From the NCBI GenBank assembly GCA_947479085.1, contig CANJYB010000001.1, positions 186,001 to 250,000 of the forward strand: DNA of 64,000 nucleotides, given 5' to 3'. A model generated the notes under the pieces. That model saw only the letters and a list, made by a program, of their open reading frames with translations, did no database searches and was not told where the DNA came from. The position numbers were made by a program, and so were the translations under genes. Origin of the DNA: Bacteroidota bacterium. Lineage in GTDB: Bacteria > Bacteroidota > Bacteroidia > 2-12-FULL-35-15. The first letter of the stretch is position 1; each line of letters starts with the position of its first letter. Shown here piece after piece: positions 1,480 to 9,818 of this stretch.

Positions 1480-2295
1480 TTATTGAACCACTATTTTGCG
1501 GATGATTTGCTTTTTATTGTCACATTTTATTTCCAGAAAATAAAGACCCTTGAGCATTTCCCCCCTTTCAATTACTATTTCTTTTGTTTTATCAGCAAAC
1601 TCTTTCTGTAAAACTATTTTTCCTAATACATCAGTAATTTTTACAGAAACATTTTTTTGTTCTTCTGTAAATGAAATCTTTGTTTGGGTAGTAAATGGAT
1701 TTGGAAAAATAGTTAAAAGGTCTGTGTTTATTCTCTCTTCAATGCCCACCGAATTATTAACAACATTCAAATTAAAATCTTTTGTTTCTGCCTGTCCATT
1801 AGTTAAACAAGGGTTATTGCCATTGGTAGCATTATACTGAACCCTAACCCTCATTCGGTGAACGCCTGGGGAAACACTTGAAGGAATAGTGACTGTAGCT
1901 GTTGAAGTTAAAGCGGCACCGGCAGCTAAACTTAAATTTGCCGCAATGTTTTCAACGAAAGGAGTAACATCATTCAGTACAAAATTGGTATCCCAGTCTA
2001 CCCAAACATTGAATTTTGTCAGGTAAGTATTTCCTGCTCTGGTGATGGAAAGAGTGTAGGTGTTTCCTGCAATTACATCACCCTGGTAACCGGTATTTAA
2101 ATAATAAGGTGATGTGGAAATACAGGTCCCCCCTGTATAAGCAAAGGTAGAACCAGTACCGGTAAAAGAAACATCCGTAATCCAGAAATCATTGGTAAGG
2201 GCACATGCCGAAAAAGTCGCGCTGGGTTGACAGTACTGTGAGAAGGTATTAAGGCTTAATAATGCAAAGGAAATAAGTGTAAGTATTTTTTTCAT
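1480..2295 (-). CDS. Secreted GEVED-domain protein with T9SS sorting domain
   Basis: 271 residues. A signal peptide (about 1-19, MKKILTLISFALLSLNTFS) is followed by a beta-rich region with the GEVED-type pattern: 'NVWVDWDTN' near residues 95-105, a 'VTIPSSVSPGVHRMRVRVQY' strand pair and 'NGQAETKDFNLNV'. Residues about 190-271 form a type A T9SS sorting domain (FPNPFTTQTKISF ... GLYFLEIK ... KIVVQ). The protein is expected to be exported by T9SS and attached to or released from the cell surface. GEVED domains are common in adhesin-like Bacteroidota proteins; the ligand is unknown. It has its own terminator. Confidence 0.85.
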   Translation of the reverse strand: MKKILTLISFALLSLNTFSQYCQPSATFSACALTNDFWITDVSFTGTGSTFAYTGGTCISTSPYYLNTGYQGDVIAGNTYTLSITRAGNTYLTKFNVWVDWDTNFVLNDVTPFVENIAANLSLAAGAALTSTATVTIPSSVSPGVHRMRVRVQYNATNGNNPCLTNGQAETKDFNLNVVNNSVGIEERINTDLLTIFPNPFTTQTKISFTEEQKNVSVKITDVLGKIVLQKEFADKTKEIVIERGEMLKGLYFLEIKCDNKKQIIRKIVVQ

Positions 2296-2432: not shown

Positions 2433-2903
2433 TTAAAGCAGGTGGTCATCAATAAATTCTCTGACACAGCCTTCTCCTCCTTTTGCATCCATCAAGTATT
2501 TGGCCACAGCTATTACTTCGCGCACAGCATCGCAAGGGCAGGCAGAAAAATGAACGTGTTTCATGATTTCCAAATCATTAATGTCATCACCTACAAAAGC
2601 AATATTTTCGTATTGAAGATTTAGCTCTTTCATCCATTCATTAAGTATGGTAAGTTTATTTTCAGAACCAACGTATACATATTCCACTCCAAGAAGTTTA
2701 GCGCGGTTGTTAATAAGGACATCGTTTTTGCCGTTGCTTAAAAAGCCAACTTTAATACCGCTTTGGATGGCTAATTTAATCCCCATTCCATCCTTAGTAT
2801 TGAATTTTTTAAATTCGTCTCCTGAATTGGAGTAATACATTCCTCCATCTGTAAGTACTCCATCCACATCAAGTACCAGAAATTTTATAAGATGTTTATT
2901 CAT
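2433..2903 (-). CDS. KdsC-type HAD phosphatase
   Basis: A 156-residue HAD phosphatase without a cap domain, the size and form of KdsC (3-deoxy-D-manno-octulosonate 8-phosphate phosphatase). HAD motif I is LDVDGVLTDG (about 10-19, nucleophile Asp and general acid Asp), motif II is the Ser of 'GFLSNG', and motif IV is 'GDDINDLE'. It is last in a three-gene operon: the DAHP synthase stops 15 bp upstream. A KdsC role in Kdo and LPS synthesis is the default reading. Family members also dephosphorylate nonulosonic acid or other sugar phosphates, and the neighbours leave room for another substrate. Confidence 0.8.
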   Translation of the reverse strand: MNKHLIKFLVLDVDGVLTDGGMYYSNSGDEFKKFNTKDGMGIKLAIQSGIKVGFLSNGKNDVLINNRAKLLGVEYVYVGSENKLTILNEWMKELNLQYENIAFVGDDINDLEIMKHVHFSACPCDAVREVIAVAKYLMDAKGGEGCVREFIDDHLL

Positions 2904-2918
2904 ATTTTTTAGTTTAGA

Positions 2919-3920
2919 TTATATCATTGTTCTTCCTACCACTTTTGCCAATGGAACCAATTCCGCATGTAATTCTCTGAATTGTTTGAAATTTAATTGT
3001 TGTGCGGCATCCGATTTTGCAACAGCAGGGTTCGGATGTGTTTCTATTAATAGTCCGTCTATACCCATTGCTACACATGCTTTTGATAAATCTGCTACAC
3101 CGTATGCAAAACCAATAGCATGACTTGGGTCAAGAATAATAGGCAGGTTAGTATACTGTTTTAAATATGCTACACCACATAAATCCAAAGTAAACCTTGT
3201 TTTGGTTTCAAAAGTTCTGATGCCTCTTTCACATAAAATTACTTTATCATTTCCACCTGATAAAATAAATTCAGCTGCCTGTACAAACTCTTGTAAGGTG
3301 GCGCCAAATCCTCTTTTTAATAGAACAGGTTTTCCTGATTTTCCACATGCCTTTAATATTCCATGGTCATACATTGCCTTTGCACCTATCTGTAAAATAT
3401 CTGCATATTCAATCACTTCGTTAACATGTGTAGAATCCCTTATTTCAGTGATTATTTTTAAACCGTGTTTGGTTCTCATTTTATCCAGCAACTTCAGGCC
3501 GGCCAATCCCATTCCCTGGAAGGCATAAGGAGTGGTGCGAGGCTTATAAGCTCCTGCACGCAACACTTTTACTCCAAGCTCAACACAAAGCTCCGCACAT
3601 TGTTCTATTTGTTCTTCCGATTCCACAGAACATGGCCCTGTTATCATCAGGGTGTTTTTATTGTTTCCTCCAATCGCTATGTTATCACTGATCTTTATTT
3701 CTCTTACTCCTGAAATATATTTTTTGCTTGCCAGCTGAATATCATCTTCAAACGGAAATTTTTCTGAAATAAAGGAATTGTATTTTTCTTCTATTGGTTT
3801 GCCTTTACTGGAAGTTATCAAAACATAAAAACCGTCTCTTTGTAAAACAATACTCTCTAATTCTTCGCCAAGCTGTTCAGCTTTTTCTTTTGTTACCTCT
3901 GGTTTCAGGTGTATAATCAT
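2919..3920 (-). CDS. aroF: 3-deoxy-7-phosphoheptulonate (DAHP) synthase, type I-beta
   Basis: 333 residues, resembling the Thermotoga-type DAHP synthase: an N-terminal ferredoxin-like regulatory domain (about 1-75, MIIHLKPEVTKEKAEQ) before the TIM barrel. Catalytic features are GPCSVES with metal ligand C97, KPRTTPYAFQG (K126-R128, PEP/E4P binding), 'LLKRGF', 'CERGIRTFE', and metal ligands H267 in DPSH, E293 and D304. It condenses PEP and erythrose 4-phosphate, the first shikimate step; aroC lies elsewhere at 60000. It follows the epimerase-CBS gene with only one base between them, so they are surely co-transcribed. The related KDO8P synthase is excluded by the motifs, though the neighbours are Kdo-like. 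Confidence 0.88.
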   Translation of the reverse strand: MIIHLKPEVTKEKAEQLGEELESIVLQRDGFYVLITSSKGKPIEEKYNSFISEKFPFEDDIQLASKKYISGVREIKISDNIAIGGNNKNTLMITGPCSVESEEQIEQCAELCVELGVKVLRAGAYKPRTTPYAFQGMGLAGLKLLDKMRTKHGLKIITEIRDSTHVNEVIEYADILQIGAKAMYDHGILKACGKSGKPVLLKRGFGATLQEFVQAAEFILSGGNDKVILCERGIRTFETKTRFTLDLCGVAYLKQYTNLPIILDPSHAIGFAYGVADLSKACVAMGIDGLLIETHPNPAVAKSDAAQQLNFKQFRELHAELVPLAKVVGRTMI

Positions 3921-3921
3921 T

Positions 3922-4926
3922 TTATTCTCCTTTTATTAAATTATTAAATGTAATTGCTCCTGTTAATTTATTTTCTGCATCCACTACCGGAAGGTAAAGG
4001 ATGGGAATTTTTGAATTTTTTACAAACGTAAGCATTTCTGAAATTGTAAATGTATTGGCTATTCTTATAGGATTAGGGTTGATAACATCCTTAATTGTCA
4101 AATCATTCAGCGAATTGATTTTTCTGATTAATCCTTTTCTTACATCTGCATTGCTGATTAAACCGGTTAGTTTCCCTTCTTTGTCAACCATTAATGTGAA
4201 CCCAAGGCAATACTTTTCGATGCTTTGCAATGCATCAATCAATAATGAATCAGTGGACAAAACAACAGGTAACTCTTCACGAGTCATCATAAAATCGCTT
4301 ACAGAAATATGAGATTGTACATTGTCATTTCTTAAATTATGAAGTGCATGACCGATAACATTTGAATTGACAAGATACGAACCCGAAACGACTGAATAGA
4401 CACCCATATTTCTTAACACAAACGAAACTTCGTCATTAACCCCACCATCCACATGAATTTTTTTGTCAGGGAATGCAGTTTTGAATTCTCTTATTTTTTT
4501 AAAATTCTCTTTGTTAAATAATCCTCCACTTTTGCCGGGAGTTGTTGTCATAAACAAAACAAAATCCATTTTGTCTTTGTATGTTTCCAAAACCGTTATC
4601 GGAGTTTCGGTAACAATGGCAATACCTATTTTTGATTTTAAACCTGCCGGTAAAATCAAAGGGGCAACTAAATTTTCGTGTTGAAATGTTACAATGTCTA
4701 CATTGTGTTTTAGCAGGTATGGATAATATTTTTCAGGGTCATCAGAAATAATATGTAAATCAATGGGCGTTTTGCTGATTGTTTTAATGATTTCGATATC
4801 ATTAAAAACAGAAAGGTCGTCATTGCAATCGATGTGTAAAAAATCTACTTTTAAATCATCTAATTCTTTAACAAGTGCTTCAACGCCTTTAGTTTTATTT
4901 GAATAGATGGATGCGGATATTTTCAT
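3922..4926 (-). CDS. Ribulose-phosphate-3-epimerase-like barrel fused to a KdsD-like CBS pair
   Basis: 334 residues in two parts. Residues 1-205 look like a ribulose-phosphate 3-epimerase (Rpe) TIM barrel. The four family metal-site positions appear kept: H31 and D33 in 'FLHIDCNDD', H58 in 'IDLHIISDDP', and D160 in 'HVDGGVND'; a 'MTTTPGKSGG' loop (126-135) matches the Rpe phosphate loop. The usual HVDVMDG motif is altered (HIDCNDD). Residues about 212-333 are two CBS domains whose pattern (LPVVLSTDSLLIDALQ, LGFTLMVDKEGKLTGLI, ADVRKGLI, DVINPNP) is that of the C-terminus of KdsD/KpsF arabinose-5-phosphate isomerases. No SIS domain is present. It is the first gene of an operon with a DAHP synthase and a KdsC-type phosphatase. 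Substrate unknown; sugar-phosphate epimerisation is the best guess, with CBS as a likely nucleotide or sugar sensor. Confidence 0.75.
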   Translation of the reverse strand: MKISASIYSNKTKGVEALVKELDDLKVDFLHIDCNDDLSVFNDIEIIKTISKTPIDLHIISDDPEKYYPYLLKHNVDIVTFQHENLVAPLILPAGLKSKIGIAIVTETPITVLETYKDKMDFVLFMTTTPGKSGGLFNKENFKKIREFKTAFPDKKIHVDGGVNDEVSFVLRNMGVYSVVSGSYLVNSNVIGHALHNLRNDNVQSHISVSDFMMTREELPVVLSTDSLLIDALQSIEKYCLGFTLMVDKEGKLTGLISNADVRKGLIRKINSLNDLTIKDVINPNPIRIANTFTISEMLTFVKNSKIPILYLPVVDAENKLTGAITFNNLIKGE

Positions 4927-4968
4927 TTGAATTCAGGCCTTAATTGGGGTGCAAAGGTAGCACAATTT

Positions 4969-5855: not shown

Positions 5856-8800
5856 TTATCTGTTAACTATTATTCGTTGTGTTTTTTTGCTTCCGTCAAT
5901 TTCGATGCTGACAGTATAAATACCATTTGAAAGAGATGCCATATTTAAGAGGATGATGTTTTTTCCAATCTTTATATTTTGTTTCGAAGTTAACACCTGT
6001 TTCCCAATCATATCATATATGGTAACGATACTTCCTGTGCTTTCTTTTGTTGAATTCAACTCAAGGAACAATTCATTTTCAGCAGGATTGGGGTAAGCAT
6101 TTACCTCGAAATTTCCGTTTGCATTATGATCATGAATTCCGGCACCTGGCCCTGTCACTGCATTTAAAGTGAGCTGCCCGAAAGAAGTAATGTTATTGGC
6201 AGTACTGAATTTTAATTGAGAATTATTTCCATTCAACGTATACACATCTGCTGTATCCTGTGAATTTCCCCAGGTGTTTCCATCTGCATTTTCTCCTCTT
6301 TTATACATAAAGAAACTGTTAGGATTGGTCAGTGTTAGTTGTGGTAATCTCGTAAATGCTATACTATCCAGTGTACTGAAATTTTGAGTTCCGTAATTAT
6401 TAATTACCCAATACTTATTTACCATTGGAAAAGGATTGGCATTCTGGTCGGGATGATAATTTAATTTGGATACCCAAACATCTCCATTTGGGTAAGTAGA
6501 ACCTCCTGAAGAAGGGAAACCCATTTTTACATCTGTGCCTGGAAAACTGTATACTCCACCTGCATTAATATTTAATTTGGTACTTGTTCCACCTGCAAAA
6601 GGTCCAGTGGAAATTACTCTTGAAGCACCTGAAGTCATTGTTGCATGTTGGTTACCGGCTCTGTCTAAAATCAAACCGTTTGGTTCGTTGAACTGGTAGT
6701 ATAAAACCAAACTGGTGTCTGTTGTTGGTATTTTGGTAAGGTGGCGCATGGCTCTCAACTCGTCCATTGATAAAGCCCTGTTCCAGATACATACTTCATC
6801 TATCAATCCATGATAAGTGCGTGATGGCCCGTATGCATCTTCTCCTATTATGGTTGGAGCATCAAACGCTTCAGGGCTATGCGCTCCGTTATCAACTGCT
6901 GCCACACCATTCAAATATACTGTTGCATCAGTTGGAGTAATTACAATTGCCACATGATTCCATTGATTAGGAATAACAGATAATCCCGAAGAAAAGCCAT
7001 AAAAATTTCCATCCCAATGGTATCTCAATTCATTATTACTTCGTAAACTTATTCCTGAACAGGATGTTCCTCCCCTGCAAAACACCACTCCAGCCCAATC
7101 ATTCTGAGTAGCATCCGGTTTTATCCAGGCCGAAATAGTAACTGTATTCGAATTGAGATTTAACGATGGCCCACTGGCAATGTCTCCATCCGCAGTTAAT
7201 TTCAGAGCATTGCCCGGAATGGTATCAGCAGCACAGGCATTTGCCAAAACATTTACTGTAACCGATTTTGTGCTGATGTTTCCATTTTGTGTTACCGTTA
7301 ATGTTGCCGTATGAGGACCAATAGCAGAGTAGGTGACTTTTGGATTTCTAATGTTAGTTGCACTTACATACGATGCGCCCGGAAAGTTCCATTGCCAGGT
7401 AACCAATGCATGATTAACAGCAGAAAAATCATCAAAATAAAAAGTATCTCTTACGCAGGAAGATTCAAGTTTATCAACTGTAGGTTGAGCAACGGGTAAA
7501 CCATCTTCATAAAAATCTACTTCCCATATCCCCCTGTTTCCGGCTGTTCTCAGTTTGCTTTTTTTGTAAAAAGGTTTTGTAGTAAGCGGTTTGTATTCCT
7601 TCGGCAGGCTGGCTGAAAAATCTACCCAATCGGTTAATGTATTATTTCTGTAAAATACTTTTGCAAGGTCAAAAGAAGTAATATAGACTCCGCCATCCGT
7701 TCCGGCCTGGTGATTTATAATCTGAAAACTGTAAGTATTAATGGTTGGTGTGGTAAGGTTTATCCAGGAAGTTCCGCCATTGATGGTTTTAAAAATTTTG
7801 TTGTTGCTGCTATTGTTTTTAGATGTAATCCATAAAATATTTTCGTCAGTATAACTTACCGAAAGTGATAACTGATTAAGCGATTGGCCTGCCGGCAATG
7901 TCAGTATATTCCAGGTGACACCGCCATCAATAGTTTTGTATAATTTAATATTTGTGGCCAGATACATCACCAATGGATTGCTTCTGCAAATTTCAAATTT
8001 CTTTACGCGTTGATGAAAATTATACACCTGCACATAAGAAACTCCACCATCTGTAGATTTCCATAAACTGCTGTCCTTGCCAATAAATATATGGTTATAA
8101 CATTCAGGATAAAATTCAACTTCACTGGCATCCCATCCATAACCATCTTCGTTAGGATATAAATTAAAAGTAAAATTACTTTTATCTCCGCTGAATGTTC
8201 TCGGCATTACATAAGCACCAATATCCGAATGCGCCACATACATATCACGCCCAACGCTTCCATAACCTGTACCTGCTTCTCCACCTCCCAAACGTAAGGC
8301 TTCTCCTGCCGGGTAACCGTCATACATCGCTGCATCGCCATTGTGATACCTGCCACCGGTCAGTATATCTTCGTTCCAGCCCTGTCCGTATCCCCAATAG
8401 TCTGATCCGTAAATACCCTTGTTTCTTGCAGAAGCATTGGCGGTGGTGGAATAAAAGTCGGTAGAATAATTTAATCCTCCATCTGTTGATATCCATGCAT
8501 CATTGCCAATCATTTTCATTTCCTGTACATCCGGATGAAGGGTGAAACCTCCTACATATCCGCCTACTGCGGTAAAGGTAACAGCACTATCGGTTGATTT
8601 GTAAGTAGAAGTTGTTCCAACAATCAGCTCATCAGGATTGGTGGTAGAAGCCATGATGCTTAAGTCATAATAACCTTGCCCTATACTCATTCCAAGAGGG
8701 CTACTGGTATTGCCGGTTAAGCTGTTCTGAATTCCGGTGCAGGTATGTGTCCAGGTATTTCCGGCATCCATACTACGCATAATGGCAGGTGCCTGAATGT

Positions 8801-9818
8801 TGCTGCCCATCAGCAAAACCGCATAAATAAAATTGGTATCCGCTGGTGTTACTGTCATTCTTCCGGAGGTAGATGTGCGAATATACCAGCCGTTATTTTG
8901 TGCAATAAATGTGGTGCCTGCATTGAATGAACGATATACCCTGAATAAGGTATCTCCAACTGCTTTCCGTAAAACATACATCGAACTGTCTCTTAACGCA
9001 TTTGTTTCTATGTCATCAATAATACCTGTAATGCCTGTAACCAGAGCGAAATTTGCTCCTGCGTTGACAGATTTATACAATCCATTATTGCCTGCAAGAA
9101 AAATAATATTAGGGTCGTTCGAAAAGATAGCAATGTCATTACATGCCAAACCTGCGGCAGTAAATATGGTTGCCCAGGTTACTCCACCATCTGTGGTTTG
9201 ATAAATTACATTTCCCTGTGCGGCATATACAATGTCAGGATTGGTGGGATGTATGGCAATGGCTGTGATTGTTCCCAGTCGTATATTGTCAGAAACAGAA
9301 ACCCAGTTCAATCCTTTGTCAACGGTTTTAAAAATGCCACCTGTTTCAGGTGCAGCGTATAAAATATCGGGGTTGGAAGGCGCAACATCAAATGCATATA
9401 AATTAACCTGCCATGGCACTGCCGGTTGTGCAGCATCATTCCACGATGCCTGGAAAGTTTCTACCGGACCTATCAACGACCAGGCACTGGTGGGGCTGCG
9501 CATGGCTGGCGAAAGTGATTTCTCCTTCATGTTTCTTTCCGGTTTTACAATGGTTCCATCATCCTGCGCATACCGTTCGTTCTCCATCATCCATCTTTTG
9601 TAATACTGAGTGTAAATGTTTTTTTCGAACGGATGATTTGCGTAATAACTATTGAATGCATCTTCCAGTTGATGAGCATTGGAAACTCCGTTGAAAAAAA
9701 GATTCATCCAATCGGGCATGGTTGCCGACTTTTCAGGTAAATAATCTTCGCCTGTTTTTTGAGAATACAATCCGGACGAACAAATAGCAAGTGAAATGAA
9801 TAATAGTAGCTTTTTCAT
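5856..9818 (-). CDS. Giant secreted protein: BNR/sortilin-like propeller, PKD, LamG-like and T9SS domains
   Basis: 1320 residues with a signal peptide (1-19, ending FSLAICSSGLYS-like). Residues about 140-770 hold many propeller repeats of the type 'lYKSvNaGaNF', 'IYQTTDGGVTWA', 'WKSTDGGVSYVQV' and 'LYKTIDGGVTWN' (BNR/sortilin/YCF48-like). A PKD domain follows at about 790-860 (NPKVTYSAIGPHTATLTVTQ), then a concanavalin/LamG-like domain (about 870-1040: SAWIKPDATQNDWAG, VYLNGVAA, GLIDEVCIWNRALS). A T9SS type A sorting domain ends the protein (NAYPNPAENELFLEL ... NGIYTVSIEID ... RIIVNR). It is probably a surface adhesin or carbohydrate-binding protein. No catalytic residues for a glycosidase are evident. 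Confidence 0.88.
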   Translation of the reverse strand: MKKLLLFISLAICSSGLYSQKTGEDYLPEKSATMPDWMNLFFNGVSNAHQLEDAFNSYYANHPFEKNIYTQYYKRWMMENERYAQDDGTIVKPERNMKEKSLSPAMRSPTSAWSLIGPVETFQASWNDAAQPAVPWQVNLYAFDVAPSNPDILYAAPETGGIFKTVDKGLNWVSVSDNIRLGTITAIAIHPTNPDIVYAAQGNVIYQTTDGGVTWATIFTAAGLACNDIAIFSNDPNIIFLAGNNGLYKSVNAGANFALVTGITGIIDDIETNALRDSSMYVLRKAVGDTLFRVYRSFNAGTTFIAQNNGWYIRTSTSGRMTVTPADTNFIYAVLLMGSNIQAPAIMRSMDAGNTWTHTCTGIQNSLTGNTSSPLGMSIGQGYYDLSIMASTTNPDELIVGTTSTYKSTDSAVTFTAVGGYVGGFTLHPDVQEMKMIGNDAWISTDGGLNYSTDFYSTTANASARNKGIYGSDYWGYGQGWNEDILTGGRYHNGDAAMYDGYPAGEALRLGGGEAGTGYGSVGRDMYVAHSDIGAYVMPRTFSGDKSNFTFNLYPNEDGYGWDASEVEFYPECYNHIFIGKDSSLWKSTDGGVSYVQVYNFHQRVKKFEICRSNPLVMYLATNIKLYKTIDGGVTWNILTLPAGQSLNQLSLSVSYTDENILWITSKNNSSNNKIFKTINGGTSWINLTTPTINTYSFQIINHQAGTDGGVYITSFDLAKVFYRNNTLTDWVDFSASLPKEYKPLTTKPFYKKSKLRTAGNRGIWEVDFYEDGLPVAQPTVDKLESSCVRDTFYFDDFSAVNHALVTWQWNFPGASYVSATNIRNPKVTYSAIGPHTATLTVTQNGNISTKSVTVNVLANACAADTIPGNALKLTADGDIASGPSLNLNSNTVTISAWIKPDATQNDWAGVVFCRGGTSCSGISLRSNNELRYHWDGNFYGFSSGLSVIPNQWNHVAIVITPTDATVYLNGVAAVDNGAHSPEAFDAPTIIGEDAYGPSRTYHGLIDEVCIWNRALSMDELRAMRHLTKIPTTDTSLVLYYQFNEPNGLILDRAGNQHATMTSGASRVISTGPFAGGTSTKLNINAGGVYSFPGTDVKMGFPSSGGSTYPNGDVWVSKLNYHPDQNANPFPMVNKYWVINNYGTQNFSTLDSIAFTRLPQLTLTNPNSFFMYKRGENADGNTWGNSQDTADVYTLNGNNSQLKFSTANNITSFGQLTLNAVTGPGAGIHDHNANGNFEVNAYPNPAENELFLELNSTKESTGSIVTIYDMIGKQVLTSKQNIKIGKNIILLNMASLSNGIYTVSIEIDGSKKTQRIIVNR

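Follow-up and report, generated by a model that had tools for sequence, protein, structure and literature searches.

Kdo is the sugar by which Gram-negative bacteria hold their outer coat in place; its synthesis is treated as near-uniform among them, and the enzymes involved are drug targets. The source genome of the DNA described here encodes KdsB (contig C11) and WaaA (contig C9), and profile searches of this genome yielded no KdsD above the family cut-off and no KdsA, the only two PF00793 matches being the synthase of the operon described below and a second DAHP synthase (contig C4, 370 aa). An ordinary Rpe is present (contig C7, 257.6 bits), so that of the three genes for which the sequence-only reading had suggested a search (kdsD, kdsA and a free rpe) only the last was found. 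What, then, feeds KdsB and WaaA? The window (the whole stretch of 64,000 nucleotides that was analyzed) holds an operon which, with a probability of roughly 0.8, is a non-orthologous replacement of KdsD, KdsA and KdsC and supplies a Kdo-type acid to KdsB and WaaA. It would thereby explain an annotation gap. An open-access literature search found no account of missing KdsD, of an Rpe-CBS fusion, of Kdo synthesis with a transaldolase-CBS protein or of threose-4-phosphate epimerases; since its coverage is incomplete, the novelty of this operon type is probable rather than proven.

The operon and its three proteins

The genes for an Rpe-CBS fusion protein, a DAHP-synthase-like enzyme and a KdsC-type phosphatase form one operon, located downstream of era. 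The intergenic gaps are 1 bp (fusion to synthase) and 15 bp (synthase to phosphatase), and the open reading frame coordinates confirm the three-gene arrangement described from the sequence alone. The features of the locus are:

3922..4926, minus strand: Rpe-family barrel with CBS pair (334 aa), which would be the regulated enzyme that opens the pathway
4327..4926, minus strand: Rpe-like TIM barrel, residues 1-200 (PF00834, invariant metal ligands, fold)
3931..4308, minus strand: CBS pair of the KdsD kind, residues 207-332 (KdsD models and solved CBS structures)
2919..3920, minus strand: enzyme of the DAHP synthase type (I-beta; 333 aa, including a small N-terminal domain), which would take the place of KdsA
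2433..2903, minus strand: HAD phosphatase of the KdsC type, 156 aa; sole copy in the genome
2391..2411, minus strand: likely intrinsic terminator, GTCTCCTG CAAAA CAGGAGAC followed by T6
4952..4959, minus strand: TACCTTTG, which fits the Bacteroidetes -7 element TAnnTTTG

The candidate terminator, directly 3' of the phosphatase gene, was recognized by eye and is absent from the output of the automatic terminator scan. The -7-like element was likewise found by eye; it lies about 25 bp 5' of the start codon of the fusion and, as a short motif without statistics, is a lead only. The operon is flanked by a GEVED protein that carries a Por secretion tail (window positions 1480-2295) and by a protein of 1320 aa (window positions 5856-9818), the C-terminal end of which is a similar-looking sorting domain.

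The fusion protein is a member of the Rpe superfamily and not a KdsD. Its barrel matches PF00834 with 93.9 bits (Pfam cut-off 21.1), stays below the Rpe equivalog TIGR01163 (80.3 vs 212.6 bits) and is also below the AlsE equivalog cut-off. Family models gave no match to a SIS domain in the fusion, and its alignments with the KdsD models start no earlier than residue 207. The four metal positions that had been noted as kept (H31, D33, H58 and D160, a His-Asp-His-Asp site) are invariant in 52 homologues with identities down to 28%. In an AlphaFold model of the fusion (mean pLDDT 91.4), residues 1-204 align best with Rpe structures (Z 25.9, 2.1 A; AlsE Z 23.2), and the CBS part aligns with the CBS pairs of the arabinose-5-phosphate isomerases 4o9k, 3fna and 3k2v. 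Pfam calls one CBS domain (residues 278-332), the other being visible through the KdsD models and the solved KdsD CBS structures; the latter are among the best matches of the pair by sequence as well as by structure. Both halves of the protein were thus assigned correctly in the sequence-only reading, the barrel to Rpe and the CBS pair to the KdsD type. As a lead, 4o9k is the structure of a KdsD CBS pair presumably in complex with CMP-Kdo.

Like KdsD, GutQ and KpsF (SIS-CBS-CBS), the fusion ends in a CBS pair of this kind and would catalyze the first step of a Kdo-type pathway, whereas an Rpe-family barrel takes the place of their catalytic SIS domain. With Rpe (PF00834) and AlsE it has in common the fold, the four metal ligands and the phosphate-binding GG and GS loops. 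It differs from them by the CBS pair and the operon context, by the lack of the MDG and HLM motifs, by a shorter loop after strand 2 and by Q82 in place of the FHxE histidine. The altered HIDCNDD motif, originally read as a sign of a changed substrate, holds up in part: position 35 varies (N, K, I), and the firmer changes are Q82 and S133, both invariant in the homologues, together with the loss of two Rpe methionines near the metal site.

Judged by its sequence, the synthase is formally a member of the DAHP synthase family and not a KdsA, in agreement with the earlier assignment from motifs. It passes the DAHP synthase model TIGR01361 (318.8 vs a cut-off of 267.75) and fails the KdsA model TIGR01362 (120.6 vs 314), and the structures 1rzm, 1vs1 and 1zco rank ahead of any KdsA. 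Type I-beta DAHP synthases (Thermotoga, Aeropyrum, Pyrococcus) are 38-51% identical to it in structure alignments and share its KPRT motif and Cys-His-Glu-Asp metal site, whereas KdsA, a member of the same superfamily, is about 30% identical. In an alignment of 52 synthases of this kind, the short KPRT motif is present in all, and the NRS insertion, R106 and the (K)ANRS motif of KdsA are absent. The alignment clearly speaks against an ordinary DAHP synthase, because the GARNxQN loop is changed to GAK[AS]MYD in all 52 sequences (one with S for D) and GRR is lost in most of them. K181 occurs in 52/52 where other DAHP synthases have R, and Y184 and D185 replace Q and N. A further difference from the type I-beta enzymes is the Kdo-type gene linkage. 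The root of the synthase tree is unsure, as two outgroups join on long branches inside the group.

The phosphatase, previously described as KdsC-like, indeed passes the subfamily model TIGR01670 (154.5 vs a cut-off of 106.95) and is the only KdsC-type match in the source genome. Its top-scoring model is that of KDN-9-phosphatase, yet the score is under the cut-off, and the KdsC equivalog cut-off is not reached either. In at least one related locus (L195:3287-3973) the operon's KdsC-type phosphatase has a helix-turn-helix (HTH_3) domain fused to its N-terminus; in several further fusion loci the phosphatase frame is similarly long (about 220-240 aa) and is extended at the N-terminus.

Distribution among related genomes

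Profile searches of 396 draft genomes of the same class (completeness at least 90%) detected the Rpe-CBS fusion in 74, KdsA in 310 and KdsD-type SIS matches in 240. KdsA occurs in none of the 74 fusion genomes and in 310 of the 322 others; a KdsD-type match occurs in a single fusion genome (G171) and in 239 of the others, the absence calls for both resting on profile searches of draft genomes. Just 12 of the 396 carry neither fusion nor KdsA. The Fisher p values of 4e-68 (fusion vs KdsA) and 3e-34 (fusion vs KdsD) ignore genome relatedness and, since the surveyed genomes are related, overstate their independence. About one fifth of the sampled genomes of the class are therefore without KdsA and, except for one, without KdsD, and a specific gene set substitutes. 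Three genera (g1, g16, g23) and several further families each contain both the fusion type and the KdsA/KdsD type, which indicates that the exchange happened more than once. Outside the class, 46 genomes of the phylum yielded no fusion. Regarding the KdsD-type matches, several in the class are weaker and probably cover SIS only, among them one (L050:1-2140, G057) that matches only in the SIS part and directly adjoins KdsA.

Among 59 close relatives, the fusion was found in 13, none of which has KdsD or a synthase of KdsA size. All 13 keep KdsB, 12 keep WaaA, and 12 have a DAHP synthase besides that of the operon. A fourteenth close relative of the fusion type (G014) is cut by a contig end; its synthase fragment is 94% identical. 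Two of these genomes show either an assembly gap or a real exception: at L060 (G042) the operon synthase is present and no second DAHP synthase was seen, so that the shikimate pathway, too, could depend on the operon enzyme there, and at L063 (G054) the operon and KdsB are kept and WaaA was not seen.

The sequence-only reading had made its pathway idea depend on a link to DAHP synthase and KdsC in other genomes, and the link is strong. The same synthase lies within about 1.7 kb downstream of the fusion in 55 of 55 loci read and is adjacent in 54; such linkage of the barrel-CBS and synthase genes is far beyond chance. KdsC follows in 47 of 52 testable loci, and none was found within at least 1.6 kb downstream in the remaining five. 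KdsB lies near the operon in G058. In the one locus of the 55 where they are not adjacent, a DNA methylase gene (N6_N4_Mtase; L190:6646-7563) is located between the Rpe-CBS and synthase genes, with the pathway genes around it in their usual order.

Role of the operon and nature of the product

By function, though not by orthology, the operon resembles a Kdo module: it is exclusive with KdsD and KdsA apart from the overlap noted above, and KdsB and WaaA are retained. The replacement reading rests on this exclusion, on the constant linkage of the synthase and on the kept KdsB and WaaA, as well as on the separate Rpe and DAHP synthase and the location of the sole KdsC in the operon; gene order and conserved catalytic residues were observed along with these. 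Across the class, the fusion and its synthase thus stand in for KdsD and KdsA, with KdsB and WaaA left in place, and the route to a 3-deoxy-ulosonic acid, one of two functions offered by the sequence-only reading, is strongly supported.

For the enzymes themselves we infer reaction, substrate and sensing as follows. The Rpe-like barrel, with its metal ion and two Asp residues as acid and base, would epimerize a short sugar phosphate at the position next to the carbonyl and would yield an aldose phosphate of the right stereochemistry; such a reaction suits Rpe chemistry, in which carbonyl and hydroxyl are bound to the metal and two Asp take part. The DAHPS-like synthase would condense this aldose phosphate with PEP to a 3-deoxy-ulosonic acid phosphate, from which the KdsC-like phosphatase would take off the phosphate; unchanged KdsB would then activate the acid and WaaA transfer it to lipid A. 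Through its CBS pair, the first enzyme is probably under feedback control, with the end product as the signal.

The other function originally offered, a regulated feed of pentose phosphates into the shikimate pathway by a CBS-controlled Rpe paralogue beside a DAHP synthase, agrees with the label that the family models give to the synthase and with the need of that pathway for erythrose-4-phosphate (E4P), which depends on pentose phosphates. The source genome, however, encodes an ordinary Rpe and, apart from the operon synthase, a DAHP synthase of about 370 aa, the latter being the rule in the close fusion genomes (12/13), and the exclusion of KdsA and KdsD and the linked sole KdsC would be left unexplained. 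On account of the second DAHP synthase and the exclusion of KdsA, we reject the shikimate feed as the main role and regard it as very improbable. That the operon serves a different surface sugar, e.g., a nonulosonic acid, with Kdo made by yet another, unseen route, is improbable as well: it accords with the KDN-9-phosphatase model ranking first for the phosphatase, albeit below its cut-off, whereas the near-perfect complementarity with KdsA and the retention of KdsB as the apparent consumer speak against it.

Given replacement, arabinose-5-phosphate and Kdo approach an even chance without reaching it, threose-4-phosphate and a seven-carbon analogue of Kdo are tenable though on the doubtful side, and another ulosonic acid is unlikely. 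The motifs point to the C4 route, the unchanged KdsB and WaaA to Kdo. In the C5 route, which taken overall can be put forward only tentatively, the barrel would make arabinose-5-phosphate (by C2 epimerization of ribose-5-phosphate or isomerization of ribulose-5-phosphate), the synthase would be a new kind of Kdo-8-phosphate synthase and the product ordinary Kdo. The enzyme of Pyrococcus furiosus is among the nearest solved structures to the synthase, and this DAHP synthase also accepts C5 sugars, related archaeal DAHP synthases being promiscuous. Moreover, in fusion genomes KdsB and WaaA are similar to their counterparts in congeneric species with KdsD, and sequence comparison revealed no clear fusion-specific residues at their conserved sites, a result that does not settle the product and that counts against the C4 route.

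In that route, which overall appears rather doubtful, the barrel would be an erythrose-4-phosphate 2-epimerase yielding D-threose-4-phosphate, the synthase would form 3-deoxy-D-lyxo-heptulosonate 7-phosphate, and a seven-carbon 'short Kdo' would be placed on lipid A. By our own derivation, the stereochemistry of this compound at C4-C6 is that of Kdo. E4P equals ribulose-5-phosphate minus C1, so that the Rpe pocket and two-base chemistry would fit. The beta-8 loop of the barrel has the Rpe length (VSGSYL) and not that of AlsE, which is one residue longer (VGTSGL) and reportedly lengthens the pocket by one carbon; the specificity argument rests on this report and on the compared Rpe and AlsE sequences. 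The loop length thus counts for a C4 and against a C5 substrate, as does the constant KPRT motif of E4P-using enzymes in the synthases that lack the KdsA NRS insertion and R106. The changed neighbouring GAR loop and the loss of GRR are also in line with the C4 route, and so is the fact that the fusion never occurs with KdsA in one surveyed genome, though KdsA combines with two other proposed sources of arabinose-5-phosphate. On the other side, the literature matches read for such a sugar concern plant pectin, and we know of no seven-carbon Kdo analogue on lipid A. The operon may reveal a new lipid A sugar; if the C4 reading is true, this sugar would derive from a C4 and not a C5 precursor, and the outer membrane would carry 'short Kdo'.

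A second gene set with a transaldolase-CBS protein

KdsD is absent from 76 of the 310 KdsA genomes, and 73 of these 76 carry a protein with a transaldolase/F6P-aldolase domain and a CBS pair, which was found in 80 of the 396 class genomes altogether. In the three loci read, its gene adjoins KdsA and a HAD phosphatase, and in two of them KdsB as well:

L046:7451-8458, transaldolase-CBS gene beside KdsA
L045:7209-8228, transaldolase-CBS gene beside KdsA
L047:7115-8137, transaldolase-CBS gene beside KdsA

F6P aldolase is known to form arabinose-5-phosphate from glycolaldehyde and glyceraldehyde-3-phosphate (PMC6298115), on which basis the transaldolase-CBS protein is very probably a second replacement of KdsD, a different source of arabinose-5-phosphate that would work by aldol addition. 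The sampled genomes fall, almost without overlap, into those with SIS-KdsD and KdsA, those with transaldolase-CBS and KdsA, and those with Rpe-CBS and the DAHPS-like synthase. Each of the three gene sets has the CBS sensor, which is thus retained while the catalytic domain is exchanged (SIS, transaldolase or Rpe barrel). In family f3 (L016:1501-2424, L186, L187, L188 and L189:3132-4151), a divergent Rpe-like protein has a degenerate CBS part, in which Pfam calls no CBS in the case of L016, and a distant transaldolase-CBS protein is encoded elsewhere in five genomes.
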